NCBI GenBank assembly: GCA_001449105.1
Contig: LNIY01000084.1
Location: 1 to 64,000 of the forward strand
DNA: 64,000 nucleotides
Source of the DNA: Caulobacter vibrioides
Lineage (GTDB): Bacteria; Pseudomonadota; Alphaproteobacteria; Caulobacterales; Caulobacteraceae
Reading direction: 5' to 3'
In this document: one piece after another, positions 1,251-36,563 of the stretch
Layout of the letters: every line of letters starts with the position of its first letter
Numbering within the stretch: the stretch's first letter is position 1
The notes under the pieces: model-generated
Database searches by the model: none
What the model was told of the DNA's origin: nothing
What the model saw: only the letters and a program-made list of their open reading frames with translations
Position numbers and translations under genes: made by a program

Positions 1251-1807
1251 GAACGCCCTTCGTCGATACGCACTGACTGGGTCGCGCTCGCGCGGCCCAG
1301 CTTTTCGGAACAATAGCGAAGCCCCTTGATCAGGTGCTTCTCCACCGTTGAGACGGACAGACCCATGCGGACCGCTATCTCGCCCGGCGACAGGCTATAA
1401 ACTTTCCGAAGGGTGAATACACGCCGACATTGTGTCGGCAGTTCCGATATCGCTTCGCGCAACTGGCGCAGCTCGTCGCGCGACACCAGTGCAGCTTCCG
1501 GACCGGGCGCCTCGTCCATGCCGCCGATCAGCTCGAAGTCGGCGACGGCGGTGATGGTCAGCACCTTGCGGCGGCGCAGGCCGTCGAAGGCCACGTTGCG
1601 CAGGGTGCGCGAGGCGAAGGCGGCCGGATTGGCGATCTCGCGCCAGGTCTTGCAGGCGATCACGCGGGTGAAGGCGTCGTGGACCAGATCCTCCGGATCG
1701 GTCTCGCCGTCGCGGCAGAACTTTCGCGCATAGGCCAGAAGCCTTGGCTCCAGGGGCAGGATCTCCCTCCGGAACCAGGCGCGCCGCTCTTCGTCGTCTG
1801 CTGTCAT
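1214..1807 (-). CDS. ECF RNA polymerase sigma factor, FecI-like
   Basis: This 197-aa protein is an extracytoplasmic-function sigma factor. Region 2 is visible around LLAYARKFCRDGETDPEDLV, and region 4 as a helix-turn-helix around YSLSPGEIAVRMGLSVSTVE. There is no region 1.1 or 3, as expected for the class. The ATG at 1807 gives MTADDEERRAWF; an upstream in-frame start would add nine residues. It overlaps the downstream FecR gene, which is the usual sigma/anti-sigma arrangement. Its likely target is a TonB-receptor promoter, but none is present in this part of the window. Confidence 0.88.
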   Translation of the reverse strand: MTADDEERRAWFRREILPLEPRLLAYARKFCRDGETDPEDLVHDAFTRVIACKTWREIANPAAFASRTLRNVAFDGLRRRKVLTITAVADFELIGGMDEAPGPEAALVSRDELRQLREAISELPTQCRRVFTLRKVYSLSPGEIAVRMGLSVSTVEKHLIKGLRYCSEKLGRASATQSVRIDEGRSWAGKRDRDAKR

Positions 1808-2018
1808 CGCCCCTCTTCCCCGGCCGGGAACCAACCCCGGCAGCGCCGTCGTGGCAAGAGGCGAAGGAGCGCCCCGGGCGGCGGGGAGGGCTTATGCGCC
1901 CGGTTCCGGCGCCAAGTATTACGAGGCGGGGCAAGGGATTGCGTGCGAACGGACGTCGCCGAAAGATTGAGCAGATTTTTTGCGCGGACCGCCCGTCAGG
2001 CGAGCGTCTTTGCTCGCT

Positions 2019-21865: not shown

Positions 21866-23125
21866 ATGAACACCCCGGCAGCGGCGGGCCAGGAACACCG
21901 GCGCCTGACGCAACAAGAAGTCGACGTGATCTGCGCCAAGCACGACCGCCTATGGTCGGCTAGGCTCGGCGGCGCGCGCGCGGTGTTCGCCTTCTGCGAC
22001 CTGTCGGGCCTGGTTCTGCACGGCCGCAATCTGTGCGACGCCGACTTCACCGGCGCGCTGCTGGTCGGGACCGACCTGCGCCGCTGCAAGCTCGACAACG
22101 CCAACCTCTACGGCGCCGACATGCAGGGCGCCGACCTCACCGATTCTTCGCTGCGCCGGGCCGACCTGCGCGGCTCCAGCCTGCGCGGCGCCAACCTGAC
22201 CGGCGCAGACCTGTTCGAGGCCGACCTGCGCGAGGGCCAGATCGCCGCCGCCGATCGCGAGAAGGGCTATCGCATCATCGAGCCCGTGCAGCGCGAGGCC
22301 TACGCCACGGGCGCCAACCTCTCGGGGGCCAACCTCGAGCGCTCGCGCCTGTCGGGCATCGTCGCCACCAAGGCCGACTTCAGCGACGCCATCCTCAAGG
22401 ACGCCAAGCTGGTCCGCGCCAATCTCAAGCAGGCCAACTTCAACGGCGCCAACATGGCCGGCGCCGACCTGTCGGGCGCCAACCTCGCCGGGGCCGACCT
22501 GCGCAACACGGTGCTGGTGGGGGTCAAGACCCTGTCCTGGAACGTCACCGGCGCCAGCATGGAAGGGGCCCTGACCGACAAGGCCTCGGGCGTCGACGTC
22601 TCCGACATGCCCTACGAGCAGATGATCGCCGACCACGCCCGCTGGTGCGAGACCGGCGGCGGCGAGGGCAAGCCGTCGGTGTTCGACCGGGCCGACCTGC
22701 GCAATCTCAAGAGCATCCGCGGCTTCAACCTGACGGCCCTGTCGGCCAAGGGCGCGGTGTTCTACGGCCTCGACATGGAAGGCGTGCAGATGCAGGGCGC
22801 CCAGCTCGAAGGCGCCGACCTTCGGGCCTGCAACCTGCGCCGGGCCGACCTGCGCGGGGCTCGCCTGAAGGGCGCCAAGCTGTCCGGCTCCGACCTGCGC
22901 GACGCCCAGCTGGGGCCGCTGCTGATCGGCAAGGAAAGGCTGCTGCCGGCCGACCTGACCGGCGTGCTGCTGACCAACGCCGACCTGGCGCGGGCCGACC
23001 TGCGCGGCGCGTGCCTGATCGGCGCGGACCTGTCGCGGGCCAACTTCACCAACGCCAATCTCAAGGACGTCGACATCACCGGCTCGGTCCGGCTGGGCGC
23101 CCGAGGGCTCGAAGACCTCATCTAA
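21866..23125 (+). CDS. Pentapeptide-repeat protein, copy 1
   Basis: The 419-aa protein has an N-terminal helical segment (LTQQEVDVICAKHDRLWSAR) and then long runs of A(D/N)LxG pentapeptides, such as ADLTDSSLRRADLRGSSLRG. These fold as a right-handed quadrilateral beta-helix. The run is broken near residues 245-280 by a non-repeat segment (ARWCETGGGEG). It is a clear paralogue of the gene that follows 107 bp downstream, which shares the N-terminal segment and the CETGG insert. Some pentapeptide proteins mimic DNA and protect gyrase; many have no known role. No signal peptide is seen. Confidence 0.9.
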   Translation: MNTPAAAGQEHRRLTQQEVDVICAKHDRLWSARLGGARAVFAFCDLSGLVLHGRNLCDADFTGALLVGTDLRRCKLDNANLYGADMQGADLTDSSLRRADLRGSSLRGANLTGADLFEADLREGQIAAADREKGYRIIEPVQREAYATGANLSGANLERSRLSGIVATKADFSDAILKDAKLVRANLKQANFNGANMAGADLSGANLAGADLRNTVLVGVKTLSWNVTGASMEGALTDKASGVDVSDMPYEQMIADHARWCETGGGEGKPSVFDRADLRNLKSIRGFNLTALSAKGAVFYGLDMEGVQMQGAQLEGADLRACNLRRADLRGARLKGAKLSGSDLRDAQLGPLLIGKERLLPADLTGVLLTNADLARADLRGACLIGADLSRANFTNANLKDVDITGSVRLGARGLEDLI

Positions 23126-23232
23126 GCTACCCAATTTGAGAAGAATGGAGCGACCTTAACCGTTCGCTCGTCGATTCCTGTTATCCGATTGTCCGCAAGT
23201 GATTTTCCAGTAAGACGGGAGGGGGTCCCGCA

Positions 23233-24495
23233 ATGAACGCCGCACAGAGCATCGCGGGACGCCGCAAGCTCAGTCAGGCCGAACTCGACATGATCGTCAC
23301 GGCCCACGAGAAATTCGTGACCGGCAAGCAGGGCGGCAAGCGCGCCTCGCTGCGGTTCATGAACCTGTCGGGCCTGGACCTGTCGTTCCGCAACCTGACC
23401 GACGCCGACCTGTCCGCCTCGATCCTCGACGGCTGCCGCATGGTGCGCGCCAAGCTCGATCGCGCCAGCCTGTTCGGCTGCGACCTGCGCAAGGCCGACC
23501 TGCGCCAGGCGAGCCTGCAGCGCGCCGACCTGCGCGGGGCCTGCCTGCGCGGCGCCAACCTCTCGCAGGCCGACCTGACCCAGGCCGACTTCCGCGAGGG
23601 CCAGATCGCCATCCCGCATCCGCGCAAGGGCCTGGACACCGTCAAGCACGAGACCCGCAACGGCGAGGTCGACGAGGTCAACTTCTCGGGCGCCACCCTG
23701 GACGGCTCGCAGTTCACCGGCGTGTCGGCCTTCAAGGCCGACTTCTCCGACTGCTCCCTGCGCGGGGCCAAGCTGTCGGGCGCCAACCTGAAGGAAGCCA
23801 ATCTGGTCGGGGCCATCCTCGACAACGCCGACGTCAAGGGCGCCAACCTCGAAGGCGCCAACCTCCAGGGCGCGGTGATGTCGGGGGTCGACACCTCGAC
23901 GGCCCGGGTCAGCGGCGCGCACATGACCGGGGCCCTGACGGCTTCGACGCCCGAGGCGGTGAACAAGGCCCGCGAGCTCTACGCCCGGTGCCTGGCCAAC
24001 CAGCAATGGTGCCAGACCGGCGGCAAGGAGGGCGCGGCCGCCCGCCTCGACGGCGAGGACCTGCGTCCGATCGGCGACCGCCTGAAGGGCCTGCGCCTGA
24101 CGGCGATGAGCGCCAAGGGCGCCTGCTTCGTCGGCATGGACCTGTCCGGCGCGCAATTGCAGGGGGCCAACCTGCAGAACGCCGACCTGCGCGCGGCCAA
24201 CCTTCGCGGCGCCGACCTGCGCGGGGCCAAGCTGACCGGCGCCAACCTCACCAAGGCCGACCTGCGCCAGGCCTTCCTGTCGCCCCTGCCGCTGGGGCCC
24301 GAGCGCAAGACCGTCGGCAACCTGGCCGCCGCGCGTCTGCGCTACGCCATGCTGCAGACCGCCGACCTCTCCGAAGCCGTCCTCGACGGCGCCGACCTGC
24401 GCGGCGCCGACTTCACCGGCGCCCGCATCGCCAAGGCCAGCTTCCGCGATTGCGACGTCGGCCAGGCCCAAGGCCTGGAATTCTCCCTGGCATAA
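23233..24495 (+). CDS. Pentapeptide-repeat protein, copy 2
   Basis: The 420-aa protein is built like its upstream neighbour: an N-terminal LSQAELDMIVTAHEKFVTGK segment, two blocks of pentapeptide repeats, and a central CQTGGKEGAA insert near residue 260. The two are tandem duplicates that have diverged. A GGGAGGGGG ribosome-binding site precedes the ATG. The gene converges on the ten-gene minus-strand operon, with about 250 bp of repeats between. A shared function with that operon is possible from position only. Confidence 0.9.
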   Translation: MNAAQSIAGRRKLSQAELDMIVTAHEKFVTGKQGGKRASLRFMNLSGLDLSFRNLTDADLSASILDGCRMVRAKLDRASLFGCDLRKADLRQASLQRADLRGACLRGANLSQADLTQADFREGQIAIPHPRKGLDTVKHETRNGEVDEVNFSGATLDGSQFTGVSAFKADFSDCSLRGAKLSGANLKEANLVGAILDNADVKGANLEGANLQGAVMSGVDTSTARVSGAHMTGALTASTPEAVNKARELYARCLANQQWCQTGGKEGAAARLDGEDLRPIGDRLKGLRLTAMSAKGACFVGMDLSGAQLQGANLQNADLRAANLRGADLRGAKLTGANLTKADLRQAFLSPLPLGPERKTVGNLAAARLRYAMLQTADLSEAVLDGADLRGADFTGARIAKASFRDCDVGQAQGLEFSLA

Positions 24496-24744: not shown

Positions 24745-25386
24745 CTAAGCCAGTCCCAGCGTCACCACGCCCGTGGTGCGCACCAGGGCGCGGGCGGGGG
24801 CGTCTTGGGTGGCGACCTTCTGTTCGGCGGCCTTTTCGGGAGGCACGGTCTCGCCCTTGGAGTCGACGAAGGCCGCGGTGATGCCCCGGGCCGACATGGC
24901 GACCGCCGCCGCCGCGCCGGTCAGGCCGCGGACCTCGGGCATGGGGGCGGCGTCGTCGAGGGCGGCTGGGGGCGGCACCGGCACGATCTTGAAGGTCAGC
25001 TTGGCCGCGCCGCTGGCCTGGAAGGCGTAGCGTTGCTGGAAGGCCGCGTCGACCGGGGTGACATAGGTGCGGGCCTTGCCGATCGCCGCAGCCTGGCCCG
25101 ACGTGCCGGCGCTGCCGTCGGCCCCGCCCGTGCCGCCGATGTGCATCGAGACCTGCACCTCGCAGGTGGTCTCGGGCAGGACGTAGAAGGTGGGCTGGTA
25201 GCCGATCGAGCGCAGCGCTTCGAGACCCTCGTCGCCGTCGCTCTCGTACATCGCCAGGGTGGCGGCGAGCGAGGCCTGGTCGAGGGCGGCCTGGGCCTCG
25301 GCCACCCCGCGCCCGACCGCGGCGATGACCTCGCCCAGCGGCGTGGCCAGGCTTTCGCTGAGCAGCTCGGAGGCGTCCTGCGACAT
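24745..25386 (-). CDS. PTFY-module protein A with C-terminal PASTA-like domain (last gene of the ten-gene operon)
   Basis: The 213-aa protein is not a recognised family member. Residues about 8-140 match the module shared across this operon: a helix with VAEAQAALDQASL, the motif GYQPTFYVL (62-70), a strand-rich middle, and the closing strand TFKIVPVPPP. The last 65 residues (from MPEVRGLTGAAAA to the VTLGLA end) have the layout of a PASTA domain, a fold known to bind peptidoglycan or beta-lactams. There is no signal peptide or membrane span. It begins 3 bp after the stop of the preceding gene and ends the operon. Function unknown. Confidence 0.75.
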   Translation of the reverse strand: MSQDASELLSESLATPLGEVIAAVGRGVAEAQAALDQASLAATLAMYESDGDEGLEALRSIGYQPTFYVLPETTCEVQVSMHIGGTGGADGSAGTSGQAAAIGKARTYVTPVDAAFQQRYAFQASGAAKLTFKIVPVPPPAALDDAAPMPEVRGLTGAAAAVAMSARGITAAFVDSKGETVPPEKAAEQKVATQDAPARALVRTTGVVTLGLA

Positions 25387-25389
25387 CGG

Positions 25390-26784
25390 TCAGGCTCCCT
25401 GTTCGTCGGCGAAGATGACCATCACCCGCGCGCCGCGGGCGATGATGGTTCCGGCCCCGGGCGACTGCACCATGGCCTGGCCGGGGGCCACGGCGGGGTT
25501 CAGGCCGCGCGGACCGGTGCTGGCCTCCAGCACCAGCCCCACCGAGGTCAGCACCCGGCGCACGGCGCTTTCGGTCAGCTGCAGCACGTCGGGCACGCGC
25601 GGGCCGTCGTCGCTGGCCGGCACTTTCTCGGGGATGAACTGGAACTTCAGGTCGCTCAGAGAGTCCTGCGGCAGGGCCTTCAGGGTCTCGGTGTCGGGGA
25701 ACTCCATGCTGCCGGTGTCGCGCAGCACGCCCTTGGCGCTGATCTGGATCGTGCCCAGCGAGAAGCCGGTGGGCTTCAGCGTCTTCTGGGCGGTGTCGAG
25801 CTGGGTGGCCATGTCGGTGGCCAGATCCGTGACGGCGACCGTCCGCAGCGTGGCGACGGCCGGATTGATCGCGCCTGTCGTTCCACCGACGGTTCCGGTG
25901 GTGGTCCCGGTCGTCGTGCCCAAGGTCGGCCGGGTCTTGATCTCCTCGATCTCCAGATCCTTGGCGACCAGCGTCGCGCGCAGGCCGGAGATCTCTTTCT
26001 CCTGATCGGCGACAACCCGCCCCCGCTCGACCAGCTGGGCGTCGCGCGTCGCCAGTTCCTGGTCGCGCTGGGCCAGGCGGGCGTTGACCTTGGCCGTCTC
26101 GTCGGCGGCCTGCGCCCGCACGGCGGCGACCTCGACCTTCTCGGCCCGCAGCGTCGCGATCTGGGCGTCGCGGGCGGCGAGGTCCTGGTCGTTCTTGGTC
26201 TTCGCGGCGGCGATCTGGGCGTCGCGTTCGGCCAGCTGCCTGGTCTGGGCGGCGATCTGGGTGTCGCGCGACGCCAGGTCCTGGTCGCTCTTGGCCAGGC
26301 GGGCGGTGAAGGTCTTGGTCGTGTCGTCCACCGCTTGGGCGCGGATGGACGCGGCGTCGATCGTCGGCGCTGCGGCGATCGGGGCGATCGGGGCGTCGGT
26401 GGCCACCACGCCGCCGATCGGGGTCGCCGTGCGCAGGGTGCGGGCCGACAGCGTGCGGGCGATCACCGTCTCGGCCACCGCCAGCCGACGGACCTGGCCG
26501 AAGTCGATGGTCAGGGCGCCGGTGCGGGCGTTGCGGGTGAATTCGGGACTGGCCGACATCACCGCCGCGCCTTCCACCAGCCGGAAGGCCGGGGCGAAGG
26601 GCAGGGTGTCGTCGGCCACGGCGCCCGCGCCCTTGGCGACGCCCGTGGCGTCGGTCTTGGCGCTGGAGACGCTGGCCCAGGCGCCGGCCTTCAGGTCGAA
26701 CAGCTGGACGTCCAGCGTCGCGCCGACGGCGAGGTTGCCGTCGGCGTCGGTCAGCCGCGCGGTCCAGGAGAAGGCGGTGCTCAT
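25390..26784 (-). CDS. Coiled-coil protein with C-terminal PASTA-like domain
   Basis: The 464-aa protein has an N-terminal beta domain (about 1-95), a long coiled coil (about 145-275) with repeated RDAQIA/RDQELA units, a Thr/Gly linker, and a C-terminal PASTA-like domain from VPDVLQLTESAVRRVL. Between linker and PASTA there is a weak copy of the operon module: DLATDMATQLDTAQKTL, then SLSDLKFQFIPEKVP. No export signal is visible. The ATG overlaps the previous stop by four bases. The length of the coiled coil suggests a spacer or scaffold; this is inference. Confidence 0.72.
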   Translation of the reverse strand: MSTAFSWTARLTDADGNLAVGATLDVQLFDLKAGAWASVSSAKTDATGVAKGAGAVADDTLPFAPAFRLVEGAAVMSASPEFTRNARTGALTIDFGQVRRLAVAETVIARTLSARTLRTATPIGGVVATDAPIAPIAAAPTIDAASIRAQAVDDTTKTFTARLAKSDQDLASRDTQIAAQTRQLAERDAQIAAAKTKNDQDLAARDAQIATLRAEKVEVAAVRAQAADETAKVNARLAQRDQELATRDAQLVERGRVVADQEKEISGLRATLVAKDLEIEEIKTRPTLGTTTGTTTGTVGGTTGAINPAVATLRTVAVTDLATDMATQLDTAQKTLKPTGFSLGTIQISAKGVLRDTGSMEFPDTETLKALPQDSLSDLKFQFIPEKVPASDDGPRVPDVLQLTESAVRRVLTSVGLVLEASTGPRGLNPAVAPGQAMVQSPGAGTIIARGARVMVIFADEQGA

Positions 26785-27434
26785 CCCACTTCCTCCAGCC
26801 CGACCACGCCTCGGCCGCTATAGGCGCCGATCGAGGCGACGACGACGACGACGGCGCGGGCCGGTTCCTTGGCGATCGACAAGGTGGCGAGGGCCCGGCC
26901 CTCGGCGTTGGTGCGCAGCAGGGCCTGCTGCAACCGGGTGCCGGGCTGGCGCACGAAGCTGGCCACGCCGCGCGCCGCCGACAGGGTGGCGCTGGCCGCG
27001 TCGTCGATGTTCAGCTCGACCGGCTGGTCGGCCAGCACCTCGCCGGCGCTGTTGGTGACCAGCACCGACAGGTGGGCCAGGCCCCCGATGTTGCCGCCGC
27101 CCGAGACGGCGATGCGCGGGGTCGGCAGGCCCTCGCCGGGCGGAGTGGCCACCAGCCGGCCGCTGATCGTGCTGCTGACCTGCTGGTTGGTGCTGTTCTG
27201 GTCCTTGGCGGTGAACAGCAGGGCGATCGGGCGGCCGCCGCTGTCGGCCTTGGTCTGCATGTCGACCTTGATCGAGAAGTCGAGGAACGGCAGCTGGTAC
27301 CCGCCCAGCGGCGCGCCGCTGGCGTCGACCTTGGGGCCGCTGTTGAGCGCCAGCTGCGCCTCGCGCACCCCCTCGGCCAGGGCGACCAGAAGCTCTTCGA
27401 TCGAATTGCCGACGAAGCGGCTCTCGGCCGGCAT
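26781..27434 (-). CDS. Divergent PTFY-module protein with Ig-like C-terminal domain
   Basis: The 217-aa protein starts with the module helix (IEELLVALAEGVREAQLALN). It has strand LPFLDFSIKVDMQTK in place of the PTFYxF segment, then closes with SGRLVATPPG. Residues about 105-210 look like a bacterial Ig-like or invasin-type beta domain (HLSVLVTNSAGEVLADQPVE). The overall form recalls DUF2589 proteins, but I cannot confirm that by search. The start ATG overlaps the stop of the upstream gene (TGATG). It has no signal peptide. Function unknown. Confidence 0.7.
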   Translation of the reverse strand: MPAESRFVGNSIEELLVALAEGVREAQLALNSGPKVDASGAPLGGYQLPFLDFSIKVDMQTKADSGGRPIALLFTAKDQNSTNQQVSSTISGRLVATPPGEGLPTPRIAVSGGGNIGGLAHLSVLVTNSAGEVLADQPVELNIDDAASATLSAARGVASFVRQPGTRLQQALLRTNAEGRALATLSIAKEPARAVVVVVASIGAYSGRGVVGLEEVG

Positions 27435-28582
27435 CAGGCGTCTCCCTCGGAACTGTCGCGGGACTCTTCGGAACGCTTGGCTTTCAGGCGTTCCAGGGCG
27501 CGATCGCGGCGGGCGTCGTCGCGCGCCTCGTCGGCTTCCTTCAGTTCGCGGACGTCGCTGGCCATCTCGCGAAGGCGGTCGGCCTTCTCGCCGAAGTCGG
27601 CGAGTTCGCCGACATAGGACGACAGCTTGCGGGCCGTCTCGCGCACATAGGGGTCGGCGCGGCCCAGGCCCGGGATGCGCTCGCGCGCCCGCTCGACCCA
27701 GTCGGACGGGATGGCGTCGCGGGCGCCGTCGAGCGCGCGTTCGGCGGCGGCGTAGGCCTTGCGGCCGCGGCTGACCATGTCGCGGGCCTTGGCCAGGCGG
27801 CGGTCCAGCGGGTCGCTGACGGTCGCCGCGCGGGGGCGTTCGGCGGGGTCGCGCAGCGCGCGGCCGGCGTCGCGCAGGCCGCGTCCGGCGTCGGCCAGCG
27901 ACGACAGGCGGCGCGACGGCTCGGTCGCTGGGACGTCCTCGCGCCGGGCGGCCAGGCGCTCCCAGGGGGCTTCGCGCGGCGAGGCGGCGGGGCGTTCCCA
28001 CGGCGTTTCCCGAGGCGTGGCGGCGGGACGTTCCCAGGCCGCCTCGCGGGGCGAAGCCGGCGCTCGCTCCCACGCCGCTTCACGCGGGGAGGGGGCGGGG
28101 CGCTCGAACACCTCGGCCGGATTGAAGCGCCGAAGGTCGGGAGTCAGGTCGCCCGGCGTCGGCCGCACCTGCTCGCCCGGCGTGCCGCGCAGGCCTTCGC
28201 CGGCCGTGGCGCGCAGGGCGTCGGCGGTCGTGCCCCGCAGCGACGGCGGCAAGGCCGGCGGATGCGGATCCGGGCGCGGACCGGCGGCGGCGCGCGCGGC
28301 GTCGCGGCCGGCGCTCCAGCGTTCCAGCTCGGCCCGGCGCTGGTTCAGCGGCGTGACGGCGTAGCGTGGATCGCCGAGCGCGCCCTGGCCGGTCAGCTGG
28401 GCCATCTTGCCCTCCAGCGCCTGGCGTTCGGCCAGCAGCCGCGCCAGGTTCGGCGACACGGCGGCCGGATCGGCGCCCGGCGGCAGGCCGACGGACGGAG
28501 AGGGGGGCGCGCGGGCCGGCGCAGGCGCCGGCGTCGGCGCCTTGGCGCGACGCAGCGCGTCCTTCCAGGGCGGATCGCTCAT
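27434..28582 (-). CDS. Arg/Pro-rich repeat protein with helical C-terminus
   Basis: The 382-aa protein has no recognised domain. The N-terminal 110 residues are Pro/Ala-rich. An eight-residue repeat of the LRGTTADA/LRATAGEG type runs about 115-146. Four 12-residue repeats of the ERPAPSPREAAW type cover 160-207, and a charged helical region (about 225-382) ends in SSEGDA. It is likely to be largely disordered up to about residue 215, with a coiled-coil tail. It overlaps both neighbours by 1-4 bases, so it is translated with the operon. An adaptor or linker role is only a guess. Confidence 0.7.
   Translation of the reverse strand: MSDPPWKDALRRAKAPTPAPAPARAPPSPSVGLPPGADPAAVSPNLARLLAERQALEGKMAQLTGQGALGDPRYAVTPLNQRRAELERWSAGRDAARAAAGPRPDPHPPALPPSLRGTTADALRATAGEGLRGTPGEQVRPTPGDLTPDLRRFNPAEVFERPAPSPREAAWERAPASPREAAWERPAATPRETPWERPAASPREAPWERLAARREDVPATEPSRRLSSLADAGRGLRDAGRALRDPAERPRAATVSDPLDRRLAKARDMVSRGRKAYAAAERALDGARDAIPSDWVERARERIPGLGRADPYVRETARKLSSYVGELADFGEKADRLREMASDVRELKEADEARDDARRDRALERLKAKRSEESRDSSEGDA
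27962..28105 (-). repeat. Four 36-bp tandem coding repeats (ERPAxSPREAxW units)
   Basis: Codons 160-207 of the Arg/Pro-rich gene encode four 12-residue units: ERPAPSPREAAW, ERAPASPREAAW, ERPAATPRETPW and ERPAASPREAPW, followed by a partial ERLAARRED. The Trp spacing is exactly 12. Such tandem units can vary in number between strains. Confidence 0.85.
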
Positions 28583-29148
28583 CCGTCGTCGTCTTCCTTG
28601 GGCGGCTCGGCGGCGGCGCGCCGCTGCTCGATCAGGGCGCGGACGCGCTCTTCGAACAGGGCCGGCGGCGGGATCGGCACCAGCTTGGTGCGCATCAGGC
28701 TCGAGCCCTCGGCGCTGTACTGGTACTTGGCCGCGTAGCTGGCGCTGACGCTGCTGGCGCTGACCGCGCCGCCGCCGCCGAACGGCGTCCAGAAGCCGCC
28801 CGCCTTGACCGTCGTGGCGCTGCTGCTGCGCTTGATCTCGGTCTCGGACTTGAACGAGATCGACATCTTCAGCTCGATGACGGTGTCGACGAACTGATAG
28901 AAGGTCGGGGTGAAGCCCAGCTCCAGCAGGCTGTATTCCTGCCCGTCGCCGAACTTGACCATGAAACTCTTGGACTTGGCGCCTTCGCCGTCCTTCTCCT
29001 CGTCGGCGTCCTCGTCATAGCCGGCCATCATCCGGGCGATGCGGAGCGATACGAGGTCGAGTTGGAGCTGGGCGGTGGCGATGCCCACACCCAGGCGCTG
29101 CACCATCTCCGGGAAGGGGACGGCGAGCAGTTCTGTGCCCACGCTCAT
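28579..29148 (-). CDS. PTFY-module protein B
   Basis: The 189-aa protein is a near-minimal form of the shared module. It has helix MVQRLGVGIATAQLQLDLVS (14-33), an acidic loop, GFTPTFYQF (78-86), strand IELKMSISFK, a Ser/Gly/Phe-rich middle (GGFWTPFGGGG), then YQYSAEGSSLMRTKLVPIPP and a charged tail. It is most similar to the upstream paralogue at 29170 (both have YSAEGSSL(M/L)RTKLVPIP), so the two are probably recent duplicates. A GGAGGA ribosome-binding site precedes the ATG. No signal peptide; function unknown. Confidence 0.75.
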   Translation of the reverse strand: MSVGTELLAVPFPEMVQRLGVGIATAQLQLDLVSLRIARMMAGYDEDADEEKDGEGAKSKSFMVKFGDGQEYSLLELGFTPTFYQFVDTVIELKMSISFKSETEIKRSSSATTVKAGGFWTPFGGGGAVSASSVSASYAAKYQYSAEGSSLMRTKLVPIPPPALFEERVRALIEQRRAAAEPPKEDDDG

Positions 29149-29169
29149 GGCGCGTCCTCCGTCCGGGGA

Positions 29170-29931
29170 TTAGTCGTCCTTCTTCTCTTCCTTGCCCAGC
29201 TTGGCGTCGAGCAGGCGGCGGCGACGCTCGACCTCCTCGTCCAGCTGGCGGCGGATGCGCTCTTCCAGGATGGCCGGCTGCGGGATCGGCACCAGCTTGG
29301 TGCGCAGCAGGCTCGAGCCCTCGGCCGAGTAGCTGTATTTCGAGGAGTAGGTGGCGTCGACCTGGCTGGTCGTGACCTGGGTGCTGTTACTGGTGCCGGC
29401 CCGGCCGCGGAACAGGCTCCAGCTGAAGCTCGAACCCTTGGTCGTCACCTGGTTGGAGTAGCGCGAGGTGTGGCTCGACTCGCTGGTGTGGGTGATCTTG
29501 ATGGCGATCTTCACCTCGATGATCGTGTCGACGAACTGGTAGAAGGTCGGCGAGAAGCCCAGCTCCAGCATCGACAGCCGCGTCGGGACGCGGATGAGGG
29601 TCTTGGGATCTTCCTTGTTTTTGACGAGCTCGGCCTTCTGGGTCTCGATGACCTTGACCAGCGCCGCGGTGTCGCCGCCCGAGATGGCGTTGTCGGCCTC
29701 GATATAGGCCAGGGCGTCCGTGGGGGTCATCAGGTCGTAGCCGAAGAAGATCCGGCTGTCGTCGAAGGTGGTGTTGCCCTCGTCGTCGGTGACGGTCTGC
29801 AGGCCGCCCATCATCTCGGCGACCTCGATGCTGTTGGCGTCCAGCTTGATCTGGCCCTCGGCGATGGCGAAGGCCATCTGCCGGATCATGTCCCCCATGG
29901 GGACGTTCAGAAGTTCTCTCCCGATCGACAT
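29170..29931 (-). CDS. PTFY-module protein C
   Basis: The 253-aa protein shares the module: helix MIRQMAFAIAEGQIKLDANS, GFSPTFYQF at 125-133, strand IIEVKIAIKITH, a Ser/Thr-rich middle (SSFSWSLFRGRAGTS) and SYSAEGSSLLRTKLVPIP. Between helix and motif it has an extra segment of about 70 residues that mixes helix and charged turns (FFGYDLMTPTDALAYIEAD). It ends in a basic/acidic coiled tail. There is no export signal. It lies 12 bp after the stop of paralogue D and 21 bp before the start of B. Confidence 0.75.
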   Translation of the reverse strand: MSIGRELLNVPMGDMIRQMAFAIAEGQIKLDANSIEVAEMMGGLQTVTDDEGNTTFDDSRIFFGYDLMTPTDALAYIEADNAISGGDTAALVKVIETQKAELVKNKEDPKTLIRVPTRLSMLELGFSPTFYQFVDTIIEVKIAIKITHTSESSHTSRYSNQVTTKGSSFSWSLFRGRAGTSNSTQVTTSQVDATYSSKYSYSAEGSSLLRTKLVPIPQPAILEERIRRQLDEEVERRRRLLDAKLGKEEKKDD

Positions 29932-29943
29932 GTCTGGTCCTTC

Positions 29944-30432
29944 CTAGGGATTGGGTTCGGGCGCAGGCGCGGGCGCGCCCTCGCTGATCTTGCGGAGCAG
30001 GGTTTCGAGGTTCTCGGGCGGCGGCAGGCTGACCAGCCGGGCCGCGATCGAGCTCATGCCCTCGGCGCTGACCGAGAACTTGCGCGCGTAGCTGACGTTG
30101 ACCGAGGCGGCGACCATGACGAAGCCGGCCTGGACGCCGACCGTGGCCCCGGCCGAGACGCCGAACTCGGTGCTCTCGGTCATGCTGAACGAGAGCTTGG
30201 CCTCCACCGTCGCCTCGGTGAAGCTGTAGAAGGTGGGCGTGAAGCCCAGCGAGATCAGGTTGTGCGTCTCGCCGCCGAGCTCGATCTCGGCCTCGGCCAT
30301 GGCCTTGGCCGTCTCGATGCTGTTGCGGTCGAGCGCCGACTGGGCCTGGGCGATGGCGATGCCCAGGCGCTCGATGATCTGCGGCAGCGGCGCCGAGAGC
30401 AGCTGCCGGGTGACGGAAGCGGTCTCGCTCAT
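29944..30432 (-). CDS. PTFY-module protein D (shortest member)
   Basis: The 162-aa protein is the simplest full copy of the module: helix PQIIERLGIAIAQAQSALDR (16-35), GFTPTFYSF (63-71), strands VEAKLSFSMTES and VSYARKFSVSAEG, the closing strand ARLVSLPPPENL, and an Ala/Pro tail. It is useful as the reference for the family. Its ATG overlaps the stop of the OmpA-containing paralogue by four bases (ATGA). The pattern of one helix and several beta strands suggests a small beta-sandwich subunit; the fold is inferred. Confidence 0.78.
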   Translation of the reverse strand: MSETASVTRQLLSAPLPQIIERLGIAIAQAQSALDRNSIETAKAMAEAEIELGGETHNLISLGFTPTFYSFTEATVEAKLSFSMTESTEFGVSAGATVGVQAGFVMVAASVNVSYARKFSVSAEGMSSIAARLVSLPPPENLETLLRKISEGAPAPAPEPNP

Positions 30433-32225
30433 GGGGTGGGCGTCGGCGTGGGCGTCGGGGTCGAATCCTTGGCCGGCGTCAGGAACGTCTTGATTTCTTC
30501 CAGGAACTCGACGGGCGCGGGCACGGCGACGATGCGGGCCGAGATGCTGCTGTTGCCGTTGATCGACTGCTCGAACTGCCGGCTGGTGCGGTAGTCGACC
30601 GACAGGCCGACGGCGACCGAGACCTTGGGCTTGTCGGCGCTGGCGGTCGGGGCGGCCGCGATCTTGTCCAGCGCCTTGGTGACGCTGGCGCCCTCGGCGG
30701 CCGACAGGGCGATGTCGTTGGCCGACAGGGTGACGAGGTTGATGATCACCGCGTCCTTGGCGTCGGAGAAGCTGACCACGCCGCCCTTGCGCACGGCGCG
30801 CACGCCGTGGGTGGCGCTGCCGGCGTTGACGTCGCGCGCCAGGTTGAAGGCGTAGGCCTGGGGCGAGTTGGCCTCGAGCGTCGCCCCGCCGTCGCTGGCG
30901 GCCGCGCCGCTGATGGCGACTTCGGTGTCCGAGGCCCCGACCTTCACCGCCGTGCCGTCCACCGGCACGGCCTCGAAGTGGCGCACGATGATGAAGCCGT
31001 TGCCGCCGCCCGAGCTGGTCTTGTCCGGCGTCGGCGTGGCCTGCAGCTGGGTTCCGGCCGACTCGACCACCACCAGCAGATCGTTGGAGTCGGCCAGCAT
31101 CACCTCGGCGCGGCGGAACTGCTGGTTGGCGACCTTGTCGTCCGTCCCCAGCCATCGGCTCTCGCCGCGGCTTTCGGTCTTGCGGATCTGGCTGGACTTC
31201 ACGCCGTTGTCGATCAGGAACGCAGCGACCTTGTTGGCGCGGTCCTGGCCCAGTTTCAGGTTGTAGGCGTCGCCGCCCTGGCGGTCGGTGAAGCCGATGA
31301 CGTCGACGGTGGCGCCATTGGCCTTCAAGGCCCGGGCGACCGGGGTCAGTTCGTCGATCGCTTCCTTCTTCAGGTCGGACTTGTCGGTGTCGAACAGCGC
31401 CAGGCCCAGGGTGCCGCCGCCGACCGGCAGGTCGGAGCCGACCGGGTCGCGCAGCAGCTTGGCCTTGAAGCCGCCCAGCGCGTTGATCTGGCTGGCCACC
31501 GCGCGGGCGTAGAGCAGGCTGTTGGCCTTGGCCTCGACCTTGGTGCTCTTGCCCGAGGCCAGCACGAACTCCTCGCTGGTCTTGTCGGGCGGGGTCTCGA
31601 TGATGCGGATGACGCCGAGACTGGACTCCGTGGCGGCGTAGAACGCCACGCTGGTGTCGGTCTTGATCGGGTTCTTGGCGTTGTCGGGGAGCAGCTTGAA
31701 CGGCACCTTGGTGCGCTTGGCGCTGACATAGGCGCGCTCGAACTTTCCCGAAGGCGTGCCGAGCTTCTTGGCCAGGTCCTCGGCCGCGGCCTCGACGTCG
31801 GCGCCGGCGGCGTCGGTCTTGGTTCCGTCGACGGTGACGCTGGCGGGCAGGCTCTTGAGCGTGATCTGGGCCTCGCGGGCGCTGGCGGGGGCCTGGGGGC
31901 CGCCCTGGCCGAAGCCGAAGTCCAGCTTGCCGCCGATGCCGAAGGCGCTGGCCTCGCCGACCTTCATGGTCAGCTGCATCGAGACCGACAGGTCGGCGTG
32001 CTGGTAGTGGTAGAAGGGCGGCGACAGGCCCAGCTGCAGCAGGCTCTTGCCGCCGAGGCCGGGGCGCGGTTCGACGTACTCGCCGACCTGGGCCAGGCTG
32101 TTGAGGTCGAGCGCCTTCTGGGCGTCGGCGATCGACAGGCCCATGGCCTTGATGAACTCGGCGACGCTGGCGTCGGCCAGGATCTGGCCGGGCGTCATCT
32201 TCTCGATGGGGTTCTCGTCAGCCAT
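30429..32225 (-). CDS. PTFY-module protein E with a nested OmpA-like domain
   Basis: The 598-aa protein starts with the module helix (VAEFIKAMGLSIADAQKALD, 21-40) and the variant motif GLSPPFYHY (66-74). The module resumes only at 534-583 (SVDYRTSRQFEQSINGNSSI, then ARIVAVPAPVEFLEEI). About 420 residues lie between. They include an OmpA/MotB-like domain (about 271-380: ALFDTDKSDLKKEA, GFTDRQGGDAYNLKLGQDRA, FRRAEVML) and a Val/Ala-rich beta region. OmpA-like domains normally bind peptidoglycan, yet there is no signal peptide. The C-terminus is a TPTPTPTP run. An AAGGAG ribosome-binding site lies inside the end of the previous gene. Confidence 0.8.
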   Translation of the reverse strand: MADENPIEKMTPGQILADASVAEFIKAMGLSIADAQKALDLNSLAQVGEYVEPRPGLGGKSLLQLGLSPPFYHYQHADLSVSMQLTMKVGEASAFGIGGKLDFGFGQGGPQAPASAREAQITLKSLPASVTVDGTKTDAAGADVEAAAEDLAKKLGTPSGKFERAYVSAKRTKVPFKLLPDNAKNPIKTDTSVAFYAATESSLGVIRIIETPPDKTSEEFVLASGKSTKVEAKANSLLYARAVASQINALGGFKAKLLRDPVGSDLPVGGGTLGLALFDTDKSDLKKEAIDELTPVARALKANGATVDVIGFTDRQGGDAYNLKLGQDRANKVAAFLIDNGVKSSQIRKTESRGESRWLGTDDKVANQQFRRAEVMLADSNDLLVVVESAGTQLQATPTPDKTSSGGGNGFIIVRHFEAVPVDGTAVKVGASDTEVAISGAAASDGGATLEANSPQAYAFNLARDVNAGSATHGVRAVRKGGVVSFSDAKDAVIINLVTLSANDIALSAAEGASVTKALDKIAAAPTASADKPKVSVAVGLSVDYRTSRQFEQSINGNSSISARIVAVPAPVEFLEEIKTFLTPAKDSTPTPTPTPTP

Positions 32226-32802
32226 GCATCGGCTCCTTGGTCAGCGGCTCCGTGAGCGCAGCGGGGGACTCGCAGGCGCGCGCCCGGTCGACGGTGTCGG
32301 CGCGCACGGTCCAGTAGCCGTGGACGCGCTGGGCTTCGGACAGCCGGCCGGCGGGCACGCCGAGGCCGCGGGCGGTCCAGGCCAGAAGGCTGCGGGAAAG
32401 GGGCAGGGCCTCGTCCAGGGCGACGGCCGCCGTCAGGCTTTCGCGGGCGGCGGTCACGTCGCCGGCCTGCAACTCGTTGACGCCCTTGCGTTCCAGCAGG
32501 CAGGCGCGGTCGCGGCGCTGGAAGTCGCTGGGCGTGCCGTCGCCCAGTTCGGCGGCCGCGCTGCTGGCGGCTTCGCCGGCCAGGATGGCGGCCTGCTGGT
32601 GGGCGCCGGTGCGCTCCAGGCTTTCCAGTACGCAGTGCAGATAGTGGCGGGCGAATATCTGCGGGGCGCGCACGCCATGGGCCAGGCGCAGGGCCTCGCG
32701 ATACTTGGCCAGGGCCTGGTCGTGGCGGCCCTTCAGCGCCAGGACCTTGCCGGCTTCGGCGACGCCGGCGTGCAGGCGATGGATGTCGGGGGCGCCGGTC
32801 AT
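32218..32802 (-). CDS. TPR-like helical protein
   Basis: The 194-aa protein consists of paired helices of TPR character: AGKVLALKGRHDQALAKYRE, then HYLHCVLESLERTGAHQQAA and RKGVNELQAGDVTAARESL. These match the alternating small/large residue pattern of tetratricopeptide repeats. Such proteins assist assembly by binding partners. It overlaps its upstream neighbour by four bases and its downstream neighbour by eight. No signal peptide. It may act as a chaperone or assembly factor for the operon products; this is inference. Confidence 0.72.
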   Translation of the reverse strand: MTGAPDIHRLHAGVAEAGKVLALKGRHDQALAKYREALRLAHGVRAPQIFARHYLHCVLESLERTGAHQQAAILAGEAASSAAAELGDGTPSDFQRRDRACLLERKGVNELQAGDVTAARESLTAAVALDEALPLSRSLLAWTARGLGVPAGRLSEAQRVHGYWTVRADTVDRARACESPAALTEPLTKEPMHG

Positions 32803-33881
32803 GCCCGGACCTCGGAGAACAGCACCTCGGCGCCGGCCGCTTCCAGCCGATGGCGCAGCAGAAGCGCGCGCGGGCGCGGCATCAGCTCCGTCGACACCGG
32901 GGCGACGCCGGACAGCCCGAGCTGCGCCAGCAGTCCGGCGGGCGCTGAAAGCACGTCGAGCGCCTGATAGGAGAAGGTTTCCAGCTCGGCGCGCACCGTC
33001 AGCCCGGCCTCGGCGTAGGCGGCCATGCGGTCTTCGAGGTCGGCGAAGGCGACGCCGGCCTCGATGGGAACCGGCAGGGCCTGGCGCAGCAGGTCGAAGT
33101 CCTCGACCGGCACGCCGGCCAGGGTCTCCAGCGCGGCGGCGGCTTCCGCGGGCGCGGCGACCAGTTCCAGGGTGAAGCGCAGGAAGGCCTGATCGACGAT
33201 CCGCACCTGCTCGGGGGCCTTCAGCCGGCGCCACAGGGCGTCGGCCTCGCCGCGGGGCAGGTCGAAGACGGTGGCCGAACCGCCGGTCGAGATGTCGGTC
33301 CCCGCCGGCAGCCGTTGGCGCAGGACGCCGACCTGCAGGTGCGACAGGTTGCTGGCGAAGAGGGCGAAGCGGGCCTGGTCCGGACGGCTGGCGGTCAGGC
33401 GCACGGCGCCGGGCGGCAGCGCGGCCTCCAGGGCGCGGACGGTGGCCTCGGTGACCGCGCCGAGGATCACGCCCGGCGGCGTCAGCAGCAGGTTGAGGGC
33501 GGCGGCGGGCTCCATGCCCAGGAAGCGGCCGAGCACCGTGCTCACGGCGTCGGCGGCGTCGAGATCCAGAAGTTCGCCGGCCAGGTCCATGGGCGGGGCG
33601 CGGACGAGGGCGGCGCCGGCGGGCGCGACCTCGGCCTCGACGCCGAGCGTTCCGATCAGCGCGGCCAGACGCGCGGCGTCGGTCGCGGGCAGGTTGGCCA
33701 ACAGCCGGGCGGGAGCGCGATAGAGGGCGTCCACCACCGTTTCGACCGGCAGTTCCAGCGCCTGGCTGAGCACGGAGGCGGCGCGCGGAGACGCGTTCCC
33801 GATGCTGGTGATCAGCAGGTCGGCGGCCTCAGGTTCGACGCTTGGATACGCTACGCTGGGGTACACCGACGACTCGAGCAC
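32799..33881 (-). CDS. Protein of about five L7/L12-like alpha/beta repeats (first gene of the operon)
   Basis: The 360-aa protein is unrecognised as a whole. It can be divided into about five segments of 55-70 residues. Each has a strand, a helix, a proline-containing turn and a final helix-strand ending of the LxxxLxxxGAEVxx type. The best one reads SQALELPVETVVDALYRAPA followed by ALIGTLGVEAEVAP. This is the pattern of the C-terminal domain of ribosomal protein L7/L12. The GTG at 33881 is preferred as start because GGGAGG lies five bases before it; the frame continues five codons upstream to a TTG that would place the ribosome-binding site inside the gene. It leads the operon and overlaps the TPR gene by four bases. 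Confidence 0.7.
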   Translation of the reverse strand: MLESSVYPSVAYPSVEPEAADLLITSIGNASPRAASVLSQALELPVETVVDALYRAPARLLANLPATDAARLAALIGTLGVEAEVAPAGAALVRAPPMDLAGELLDLDAADAVSTVLGRFLGMEPAAALNLLLTPPGVILGAVTEATVRALEAALPPGAVRLTASRPDQARFALFASNLSHLQVGVLRQRLPAGTDISTGGSATVFDLPRGEADALWRRLKAPEQVRIVDQAFLRFTLELVAAPAEAAAALETLAGVPVEDFDLLRQALPVPIEAGVAFADLEDRMAAYAEAGLTVRAELETFSYQALDVLSAPAGLLAQLGLSGVAPVSTELMPRPRALLLRHRLEAAGAEVLFSEVRA

Positions 33882-34038: not shown

Positions 34039-35274
34039 CTATCGCCGTGCGAGCAAGGCCGTCGCGCCGGCGAGCGCCGCCAGGGCGGCCGCTGCGAAAA
34101 CGCCGCGAAGGTCGCCGCCGGCCGAGGCCACGGCGATGCCGAGCAGCGGGCCCAGCGCCTGCGACGCCGCCACGGCCACGTTCATGACGCCCAGGTCGCG
34201 TCCATTGCGGGCGCCGTCGGGCAACACCTCGGCCACGAGGGCCAGGTTGCTGGTCGAATAGACGCCGTGGCCGATCCCGAAGACGATCTGGGCGACCAGC
34301 GGACCGGGCCAGCCCGGAACCAGCAGCAGCAGCGAGACGCCGGCGGCGATCAGCACGCCGCCCGCGATCACTACGGGGCGACGGCCCAGCCGGTCCGATA
34401 GCGCTCCGCTCACCGCGCCCGCCGCCAGCATCCCCAGGGTCGAGGCCGTCAGCAGCAGGCCGAAAGCCGCCTCGGGCGTCACGCCCGGGAGCCGACTGGC
34501 CAGGTCGCCGCGGTCCTTGAGGTAGAAGAACAGGTAGAGGGTGTGCAGGGCCACGGCCGTCTCGACCAGCAGCCGCGAGGCGAAGACCATCCGGAAGCGG
34601 CCGTCGGCGAAGGCGGTCAGGCGGAGGCTCGGCCAGCCGATGGGCGAGCGCGCGGGCGCGGGCGGCTCGCGCAGGGTCAGGGCGAAGGGCAGGACCAGCA
34701 GGGTGGTGGCGGCGATGACGGCGGCGTAGCGGCTGGCCGCCGAGACCAGCAGGGCGCCGACCACCAGGGCCGTGAACAGCTTCGAAGCGGGCAGGGCCAG
34801 GCCCGCCCAGGCCGCCGCCGCGCCCTTCTGGTGGTCGGGCACGAGGTCGGGCAGCACGGCCGCCAGCGGCGCGTAGAGGGCGTTCACCGCCAGCTGCAGC
34901 AGAACGATCGCGCCCAGCATCTGCCACGGGGTCTGGGCCAGGCCGATCAGCGCCAGGCTGACGGCCGTGGCCGCCCAGCCGCCGAGGATCCACGGTCGGC
35001 GGCGACCCAGGCGGCCGCGCGTGGCGTCGCTGAGCGCGCCGAAGGCGATGTGGGCGGCGGCGGCCGTGATCGCCCCCACGATCGAAACCTGGCTGAGCGT
35101 CAGGTCGCGGGCGTGCGGCGCGACCTCGGCGGCCTTCAGCGGCGCCAGCAGGGTCAGCAGCGGGATGAAGGAGATGAAGGCGCCCGCATTGGCCAGGCCG
35201 TAGCCCGCCAGGAAAAGCCGTGACCGCCCGGCGGCGGCTTTGGGGTCGGGAAATGGGCGGCCGCCTTGATCCAT
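34039..35274 (-). CDS. MFS sugar transporter (GPH/SUT-like)
   Basis: The 411-aa protein has about 12 membrane spans. Two conserved loops, SDATRGRLGRRRPW and SDRLGRRPVV, occur at equivalent places in the two halves, as in MFS disaccharide transporters. It is divergent from a LacI regulator that heads a TonB receptor/GH3/GH30 locus, so it probably carries the released glucose or oligosaccharide through the inner membrane. The direct substrate is not known. Confidence 0.85.
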   Translation of the reverse strand: MDQGGRPFPDPKAAAGRSRLFLAGYGLANAGAFISFIPLLTLLAPLKAAEVAPHARDLTLSQVSIVGAITAAAAHIAFGALSDATRGRLGRRRPWILGGWAATAVSLALIGLAQTPWQMLGAIVLLQLAVNALYAPLAAVLPDLVPDHQKGAAAAWAGLALPASKLFTALVVGALLVSAASRYAAVIAATTLLVLPFALTLREPPAPARSPIGWPSLRLTAFADGRFRMVFASRLLVETAVALHTLYLFFYLKDRGDLASRLPGVTPEAAFGLLLTASTLGMLAAGAVSGALSDRLGRRPVVIAGGVLIAAGVSLLLLVPGWPGPLVAQIVFGIGHGVYSTSNLALVAEVLPDGARNGRDLGVMNVAVAASQALGPLLGIAVASAGGDLRGVFAAAALAALAGATALLARR

Positions 35275-35371
35275 CCGTGGTTTATGCGATCAGGACAGCT
35301 TGCGGTCGAGCTATTGTCAGCGCGGCCGATCGTCCTCATCGTGTCGCACCGCGTTCGGTTCGGAGAGTTCA

Positions 35372-36415
35372 TTGACGGCAAGACGGCCCACCATCGACGA
35401 CGTGGCGCGCCTTTCGGGCGTCGCGCGGACGACGGTCTCGCGGGTGCTCAACGACGGCCCCAACGTCCGCGACGAGGTGCGGGCCCGGGTGATGGAAGCC
35501 GTCAGGACGCTGGACTACAAGGTCAATCCGCAGGCCCGCTCGCTGGCCGGCGGCGGCAGCCGGCTGCTGGGGCTGGTGTTCGCCTCCGACCTGGAGAGCG
35601 AGCCCAACTCGTTCTACCACTCGGCCCTTGAGCTGGGCGCGCTGCGCGGCTGCCTGGAGCTGGGCTACCAGCTGGTCACGCGCCACATCCCCCTGCAGAG
35701 CGCCGACCGCGAGCAGCAGGTCTACGACCTGATCGCCACCCAGCGCTGCGAAGGGCTGATCTTCACGCCGCCTTATTCGGACGACGCGGCCCTGATCGCC
35801 GAGGTGCTGCGGCGCGGCTGCAAGGTTGTGTCGATCTCGCCGGGCGGGGCGGGCAGGGGTCTCGCCGACGGGGTGGGCATGGACGACGAGGCCGGCGGCT
35901 ACGACATCGCCCGTCGGCTGATCGAGCTGGGCCATCGCCGATTCGCCTTCATGGGCGGCATCGAGGGCCACCTTTCGGCCGACCGGCGCCTCGACGGCCT
36001 GATGCGTGCGCTGTCCGAGGCGGGTCTTGGCCAGGGCGACCTGATCCAGGTTCGCGGCGACTTCACCTTCCGCTCGGGGGTGGAGCTGACGCCCGGTCTG
36101 CTGGACGATCCGCTGCATCCGACGGCGCTGGTCTGCGCCAATGACGACATGGCCGCCGGCGCCCTTTCGGTGGTTCACGGGAGGGGCGTGAAAGTGCCCC
36201 AGGACCTGTCGGTTACAGGCTTCGACGACACGCCGGTGTCGGCCATCGTCTGGCCGCCGCTGACCACCGTGCACCAGCCGCTGAAGGACATGGGACGCCG
36301 CGCCGTGGCCCTTCTGGCCAGCCGCCTGACCGGTGGACGATCCGAGGCCGAACCGGAGTTCGATTGCCTCGACCACGCGGTGGTCGAACGGGGCACCGCC
36401 GCCTCCGCACCCTGA
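35372..36415 (+). CDS. LacI-family transcriptional repressor
   Basis: The 347-aa protein has the N-terminal LacI helix-turn-helix with hinge (PTIDDVARLSGVARTTVSRV) followed by a periplasmic-binding-type sugar domain (GLVFASDLESEPNSFYHSAL; FMGGIEGHLSADRRLDGL). The TTG at 35372 is the best start: GGAGAG lies seven bases upstream and the HTH begins at residue 6. Upstream in-frame sequence has no family features. It sits between the divergent MFS transporter and the TonB receptor gene. A perfect LacI-type palindrome occurs just downstream of its stop, in the receptor promoter. Confidence 0.93.
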   Translation: MTARRPTIDDVARLSGVARTTVSRVLNDGPNVRDEVRARVMEAVRTLDYKVNPQARSLAGGGSRLLGLVFASDLESEPNSFYHSALELGALRGCLELGYQLVTRHIPLQSADREQQVYDLIATQRCEGLIFTPPYSDDAALIAEVLRRGCKVVSISPGGAGRGLADGVGMDDEAGGYDIARRLIELGHRRFAFMGGIEGHLSADRRLDGLMRALSEAGLGQGDLIQVRGDFTFRSGVELTPGLLDDPLHPTALVCANDDMAAGALSVVHGRGVKVPQDLSVTGFDDTPVSAIVWPPLTTVHQPLKDMGRRAVALLASRLTGGRSEAEPEFDCLDHAVVERGTAASAP

Positions 36416-36460
36416 TCGAACGTCGATCCCCTTGACAAGGCCGACGCGTTGCGGCCTTTG

Positions 36461-36476
36461 TTGGAAGCGCTTCCAA
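36461..36476. promoter_or_regulatory. LacI-type operator upstream of the TonB receptor
   Basis: TTGGAAGCGCTTCCAA is a perfect 16-bp palindrome with the central CG and flanking pattern typical of LacI/GalR sites. It lies 87 bp before the receptor start. A TTGACA hexamer occurs at 36432-36437, so the operator would overlap or closely follow the core promoter and block transcription when the repressor is bound. Confidence 0.8.
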
Positions 36477-36563
36477 TTCACGAAAGCGCGGCCTTTCGAC
36501 GCCAAATCCGCAAAGAGACGGGGCGAGGAGGGCCAGGGAAGAGACGCAGGAGGGGAGAGTCCT

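Follow-up and report, generated by a model that had tools for sequence, protein, structure and literature searches.

A conserved ten-gene operon of Caulobacter vibrioides encodes six paralogous module proteins with a possible link to the cell wall

The window analyzed in this work is a stretch of 64,000 nucleotides from Caulobacter vibrioides (GenBank assembly GCA_001449105.1, contig LNIY01000084.1, positions 1 to 64,000), whose source genome is 5.3 Mb, and the subject is an operon of ten minus-strand genes, designated J to A in the direction of transcription, which occupies positions 33881-24745 as a single packed unit. The nine junctions from A-B to I-J measured +3, -4, -1, -4, +21, +12, -4, -8, and -4 bp, the extremes being an overlap of 8 bp and a gap of 21 bp, in agreement with the first-pass annotation of this DNA, which had described ten minus-strand genes packed with overlaps of 1-8 bp or gaps of 3-21 bp. 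The starts taken for C (27434), G (30432), I (32802), and J (33881) are internal to the longest open reading frames, and a codon-usage gene caller recovered all ten genes, with the start of F placed 11 codons later. The first gene, J (32799-33881), encodes a 360-amino-acid protein resembling the C-terminal part of ribosomal protein L7/L12, and is followed by I (32218-32802; 194 aa), a TPR protein; the families of J and I were found in 77 and 78, respectively, of the 85 loci compared below. H (30429-32225; 598 aa) contains a module that is split by a large head with an OmpA/Pal-like domain (approximately aa 272-377), G (29944-30432; 162 aa) is the bare module, F (29170-29931; 253 aa) has the module with a long insert before its PTFY motif and a long hairpin tip, and E (28579-29148; 189 aa) also has the module. 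D (27434-28582; 382 aa) is Arg/Pro-rich, as seen directly, and its position is constant in the conserved gene order. C (26781-27434; 217 aa) combines a divergent module with an Ig-like part, B (25390-26784; 464 aa) consists of an N-terminal domain, a coiled coil, and PASTA, and A (24745-25386; 213 aa) has the module and a PASTA-like tail.

As judged by sequence comparison, six of these proteins are paralogues that share one module, clear in G, F, E, A, and H and present as a divergent copy in C. A hidden Markov model (HMM) of the module, built from relatives, matched the window proteins F (1.1e-58), E (7.5e-58), G (1.2e-57), H (6.4e-50), A (2.6e-44), and C (3.3e-5), and all ten profile-profile pairs among G, E, F, A, and H gave values between 6e-15 and 1e-65. 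These results uphold the five clear members proposed in the first-pass annotation (the genes at 24745, 28579, 29170, 29944, and 30429), which had further named the gene at 26781 and the C-terminal part of the gene at 25390 as divergent copies. The former of these two was borne out, in that the profile of C matched those of A (7.1e-8) and H (8.2e-5), while its values with G, E, and F (0.0035-0.013) were near the 0.0038 reached by reversed-profile controls. The latter was not: B was absent from the matches of the module HMM to the window proteins at E ≤ 10, and its C-terminal part gave profile values of 0.0055-0.31 with the other members, leaving a module copy there unsupported. A and B matched each other by profile (5.2e-10) over the module's end and the PASTA part, mainly on account of the PASTA region that they share. 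The profiles omitted rows with X or of odd length (the rows used were, for instance, 65 of 72 for B, 61 of 65 for D, and 77 of 81 for H), and alignments A4, A5, A7, and A8 represent hand-picked loci and thus a subset only.

The order of the ten genes is fixed in most of the loci that were compared. Genome contigs were scanned with one peptide pattern, which yielded 159 relatives among 164 candidate stretches, and 80 of these stretches were examined and combined with five further rows to give 85 loci. The complete ten-gene order was present in 61 of the 85, of which 57 read J I H G F E D C B A and four, in records titled Myxococcus, Archangium, and Corallococcus, had the same order with one extra gene; with L043 and L053 being the same locus, the count for distinct loci is 60 of 84. 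Of the other 24 loci, 14 were cut by contig ends, L009 holds a five-gene form, L069 was lost by the gene caller, six (L064, L090, L099, L108, L111, and L118) have a gene that is extra, unclustered, or missing at D or B, and in two (L119 and L126) H is short, the places of D and B are taken by unclustered genes, and a B-family gene follows A. The conservation of gene order in other genomes that the first-pass annotation had named as support was therefore strongly evident. Ten-gene loci were found, for instance, in Caulobacter, Sphingomonas, Ideonella, Halomonas, Kordia, Tenacibaculum, and Myxococcus, and the carriers were placed in Pseudomonadota, Bacteroidota, and Myxococcota, as well as in metagenome-assembled genomes of other groups, which were possibly misbinned. 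When neighboring genes were clustered, the largest family from outside the operon occurred in 11 of the 85 loci, and the operon therefore appears, as far as clustering tells, to stand alone. Furthermore, pairwise distances of nine of the genes (D excluded) were correlated over 44 loci (r 0.72-0.93). Co-inheritance of the ten genes is thus supported by these sequence comparisons, though not proven.

In contrast to this fixed order, the presence of the operon is patchy. It was found in eight of 101 relatives including the window genome, all of the carriers belonging to the genus of the window, and tblastn detected J to A in order in all six contiguous loci of the seven other carriers, the seventh giving consistent fragments. 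Among 398 genomes sampled from the phylum of the window, the window genome itself was the only one with the operon, while the Bacteroidota sample contained two of 296 (the centre genome and one holding the five-gene form) and the Myxococcota sample ten of 193, four of which were already known from the contig scan and one of which had a single weak match. The gene order kept from Caulobacter to myxobacteria and flavobacteria despite this patchiness is strong evidence for one selected machine. On the upstream side of the operon, an MFS transporter, a LacI-type regulator, and a TonB receptor were named by eye (34039-39329), and copies of the flanking MFS gene with an identity of at least 90 percent were confined, among 61 genomes of the genus, to the window and five other carriers. 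Therefore, the MFS/LacI/TonB block and the operon may move together in Caulobacter. The operon of genome G007 bears different flanks; the patchy presence, the restriction of the MFS flank to carriers, and the other flanks in G007 fit a gain by transfer. Adjoining the operon on the other side (21866-24495) are two tandem genes for pentapeptide-repeat proteins, also named by eye, which were placed outside the unit because a homologue of the second occurs in 59 of the 61 genomes of the genus. An origin from a phage or plasmid was considered and rejected: E and a Kordia G had no relative in phage records, neither E nor the 54-row profile had one in viral contigs, and a plasmid search with E and one G found only the five-gene form of Sphaerotilus.

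This shorter cassette lies on Sphaerotilus plasmid NZ_CP035710 (L009:14643-17422) and in a Bacteroidota genome (L192:2293-5658), with an identical gene order in both and with each gene pair matching at 2.6e-10 or better. It resembles the operon in that each cassette includes two module proteins, and differs from it in having no homologue of J, I, D, or B at E ≤ 1e-3; the matches of H fall on the module proteins.

An AlphaFold model of G made with 54 sequences contains a helix (residues 16-47), two strands forming a hairpin (68-101 and 104-136), and a second helix (140-151), with a mean predicted local distance difference test score (pLDDT) of 70 and values of about 90 at the hairpin base. The module is accordingly modeled as a helix, a beta hairpin, and a helix, the tip being uncertain. 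The first-pass annotation had named one fold in five to seven members as support; the module is shared by six as far as sequence is concerned, and by predicted structure in the two that were modeled, G and H. In G, E, and F over 44 loci, the strands of the hairpin base had mean pairwise identities of 0.72-0.82, versus 0.31-0.40 for the tip, and were the best conserved parts, the C-terminal tail having 0.36-0.48. The best Foldseek matches of G in PDB were all non-significant (0.07-0.2). Most were to the beta stems of pores that form rings, with the FliF ring and a phage portal also among them, and this weak likeness counts in favor of the oligomeric structure proposed below. The pore stems also raise the alternative that the operon encodes a membrane-piercing beta-barrel pore or translocation tube, in which each subunit would donate its hairpin to a transmembrane barrel. 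The hairpin fold of the model agrees with such a pore, as does the finding that the nearest PDB shapes are pore stems, the best at E 0.074 and with lysenin and aerolysin ranking lower. Polar/apolar alternation was also observed at the base of the first strand in most sequences (G 57/80, E 56/78, F 54/73, A 62/65) and in the outgoing distal stretch of G (60/80). However, this stretch seldom alternates in E (16/78), F (16/73), and A (4/64), the returning distal stretch almost never does (G 8/80, E 1/78, F 0/73, A 1/64), and at the base of the second strand alternation was found in E (42/78), F (60/73), and A (61/65) but in only 1/80 of G; rows without a PTFY-type motif (E 1/79, F 7/80, A 6/71) were omitted from these counts. 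The lack of alternation in most distal stretches argues against a transmembrane barrel to which every subunit contributes, a structure mostly unsupported by these counts. With no Foldseek match at E ≤ 0.001 and a distal pLDDT below 50 as further points against it, a pore is rather improbable.

Searches of family libraries gave few names for the ten proteins. In Pfam, OmpA in H (2.1e-18) and PASTA in B (8.6e-6) exceeded the cut-offs, while TPR in I (TPR_11, 6.2e-6; 26.3 versus 26.8 bits, and thus just below), Big_1 in C (0.0011), and PASTA in A (0.13) did not. Therefore, of the extra domains that the first-pass annotation had assigned to the members, the OmpA-like and PASTA-like domains of H and B are firm, whereas the Ig-like part of C and the PASTA-like part of A fall below the thresholds. 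That annotation had overlooked the ribosomal L7/L12 C-terminal likeness of J, for which Ribosomal_L12 matched 17 of 35 scanned orthologues (best 1.6e-7), the J of the window itself being below detection. At E ≤ 1e-3, NCBIfam added OmpA-type families for H and an SMC-type coiled-coil match for B (1.3e-4), PHROGs gave OmpA-region families of H only, and D had no family match in Pfam, NCBIfam, or PHROGs. PADLOC returned the OmpA part of ZorB together with weak coiled-coil or stray matches. No sheath, tube, baseplate, or ATPase was matched by any of the ten proteins at E ≤ 1e-3 in Pfam, NCBIfam, and PHROGs, and no described system was strongly matched by most of the genes in these libraries or PADLOC, in keeping with the earlier statement that no recognized phage tail, secretion, or defense gene is present. 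Accordingly, a domesticated or phage-derived tail-like particle is very improbable. Some hints of one could be seen in the non-significant Foldseek likeness to phage portal and tail parts, in the match of the G model to an unnamed 178-aa viral protein model in BFVD (A0A516MP19, E 3.4e-6), and in weak PHROG hits linking I to a minor tail protein (0.2) and J to a head decoration family (0.32), but the restriction of the better PHROG matches (E ≤ 1e-3) to the OmpA region of H, and the absence of relatives from viral contigs (searched with E and the 54-row profile) and from phage records (searched with E and the Kordia G), argue against it.

The most direct connection to the cell wall is found in H. 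Its AlphaFold model (33 sequences, mean 79.5) contains a helix (21-51) and two strands (71-92 and 548-568) of moderate or low confidence, a confident head (about residues 120 to 520) with the OmpA fold within it, and linkers below 50. The helix and strands frame the head in the model, and the OmpA head would thus sit inside the hairpin. Residues 277-376 matched the Pal fold (TMt 0.85), with the peptide-bound entry 3td5 among the matches listed, and H aligned with solved OmpA domains through G-F-T-D-R and a later R. D314 and R329 were both present in 33 of 33 H sequences in one alignment, and in a wider alignment the D was kept in 71 of 77 and the R in 77 of 77. We take their equivalents to be the diaminopimelate-binding residues of OmpA-like domains. 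When the OmpA residues were sought at a fixed spacing, 32 of 81 H sequences matched, a low count that is due to variation in the length of the D-to-R loop. The domain thus shares the fold and the D/R contact residues of OmpA/Pal domains, and is predicted to bind peptidoglycan, while it differs from them in lying within a hairpin, in a protein without an evident signal peptide, and in its variable D-R loop lengths. By crude hydropathy, transmembrane-like stretches were detected in 6 of 756 operon proteins versus 195 of 693 neighbors (proteins of more than 120 aa), and signal-like N-termini in 5 of 756 versus 191 of 693. Therefore, the operon products are probably cytoplasmic, though with wall-binding parts. 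The rarity of export signals could also be explained by a shell or filament inside the cell (for example, a rib like that of gas vesicles, or another compartment or cytoskeleton), in which the wall-type domains would serve other contacts. GvpA likewise has a helix-hairpin-helix topology and occurs as several paralogues, and this topology and the multiple paralogues per operon are in keeping with such a structure. On the other hand, gas-vesicle families were absent from the matches of the ten proteins at E ≤ 1 in Pfam and NCBIfam and from those in PHROGs, and the kept OmpA contact residues argue for retained peptidoglycan binding, and for these reasons a shell or filament is considered unlikely.

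The module is probably, at moderate confidence, a distant relative of DUF2589 (PF11655), a family whose function is undescribed. A profile of 14 DUF2589 sequences (15 were drawn, L151 being dropped for a doubtful open reading frame and L145 shortened to residues 1-196) matched E (4.3e-6 over 161 columns) and G (1.8e-5 over 145 columns) end to end and co-linearly, with reversed profiles at 0.081 and 0.22, respectively. Its values with F, A, H, and C singly were 0.0015-0.033 (F reversed, 0.0082), and those with D, I, J, and the N-terminus of B were 0.59 or more. Our confidence is moderate because the match was mixed with ten sequences (E 6.9e-6, G 0.021) and non-significant with five (0.0058-0.15). 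Among 54 module members, none exceeded the Pfam cut-off of DUF2589 (23 bits), and the best match, the sole one at E ≤ 1, was 0.13. DUF2589 also occurs as neighboring short paralogues, and it differs in being paired or single in the three loci fetched, where no OmpA, PASTA, TPR, or L7/L12-like partner was seen by eye. Passages of PMC3949148 report that the tandem DUF2589 genes AF0414-AF0417 of Archaeoglobus were up-regulated with lactate. In L145, a DUF2589 protein (approximately 1089-2067, minus strand) has a C-terminal extension that looks Ig-like on visual inspection, and so resembles gene C in its arrangement, and other DUF2589 relatives were seen on a 194 kb contig of a viral collection (L214:5001-5597) and in an unannotated 4 kb phage record (MT839761).

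This kinship bears on the possibility that the operon is a conflict (defense) module that senses or punishes invasion, with DUF2589, and perhaps the Trypco2 adaptors of MoxR-vWA systems, as relatives of its shared module. According to passages of PMC7159879 and PMC10907252, Trypco2 belongs to MoxR-vWA conflict systems, and the former source describes peptidoglycan-associating OmpA and PASTA effectors in related iSTAND systems. Together with the patchy spread of the operon, these could be taken in favor of a defense role. However, the likeness to Trypco2 (PF19631) consists of a match of one of the 54 module members at 0.031, among 28 stray families, and is too weak to count. The OmpA and PASTA domains of those systems, in the same passages of PMC7159879, typically follow a transmembrane segment, which is rare in the operon proteins. 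Furthermore, Pfam gave no match to MoxR, vWA, trypsin/peptidase, TIR, or NTPase among the ten proteins (at E ≤ 1e-3 for peptidase, NTPase, and vWA), the neighbors having been compared by clustering and not with Pfam; PADLOC yielded nothing beyond the matches given above; and DUF2589 was present in six of 37 operon-carrying genomes searched. A defense module is therefore quite improbable.

Our best reading, which we hold tentatively and rank ahead of an intracellular shell or filament and of a pore, is that the operon encodes a cytoplasmically made, wall-directed hetero-oligomeric structure. The six paralogous subunits (G, F, E, H, A, and C), each with a long helix, a beta hairpin, and, in those that were modeled, a short C-terminal helix, would associate laterally via the conserved base of the hairpin to form a hetero-oligomeric ring, rib, or tube. 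The variable tips would protrude, carrying an adaptor, as in the OmpA head of H, or being followed by one, as in the PASTA part of A and the Ig-like part of C, while I (TPR), J (L7/L12-like), D, and B may act as scaffold, adaptor, or assembly factors. It is proposed that the structure works at a cell wall because OmpA and PASTA parts bind peptidoglycan, and its target would be the wall of its own cell or, after release, that of another. The observations on which the first-pass annotation was built are thus confirmed, and its interpretation as a hetero-oligomeric assembly is partly supported.

Several points weigh against this wall-directed structure. The pLDDT of G falls below 50 at residues 88-122, the outer hairpin, the module part of H is less confident than its head, and the Foldseek search of G against PDB gave nothing at E ≤ 0.001. 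Correlated gene distances also arise from shared ancestry alone, and clustering of the neighbors in the 85 loci revealed no widespread companion family of the ATPase, enzyme, lysis, or secretion type. Ser replaces the contact Asp in 6 of 77 H sequences, and the H proteins of L119, L126, and L193 are too short for an OmpA head. In one Myxococcota genome with all ten genes, H has 306 aa and the head cannot fit, which suggests that the OmpA part may have been added to H or lost from it. Moreover, proteins without signal peptides would normally not encounter peptidoglycan, and PASTA and OmpA folds are reusable.

A wider proposal, which we regard as possible but more doubtful than the wall-directed structure itself, is that the operon represents a novel type of self-contained nanomachine: a cytoplasmic hetero-oligomeric ring or tube of six paralogous hairpin subunits with OmpA and PASTA grips, encoded by a ten-gene cassette that crosses phyla, having the five-gene cassette as its minimal form, and belonging to a DUF2589 superfamily. 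No description of the operon was found in Pfam, NCBIfam, PHROGs, PADLOC, or the open-access literature searched, in which the PTFY motif strings and the domain combination were likewise not mentioned, and no library searched names the unit. Should the assembly prove real, it would add a new type of structure to those known from bacteria and provide a structural context for the orphan family DUF2589.

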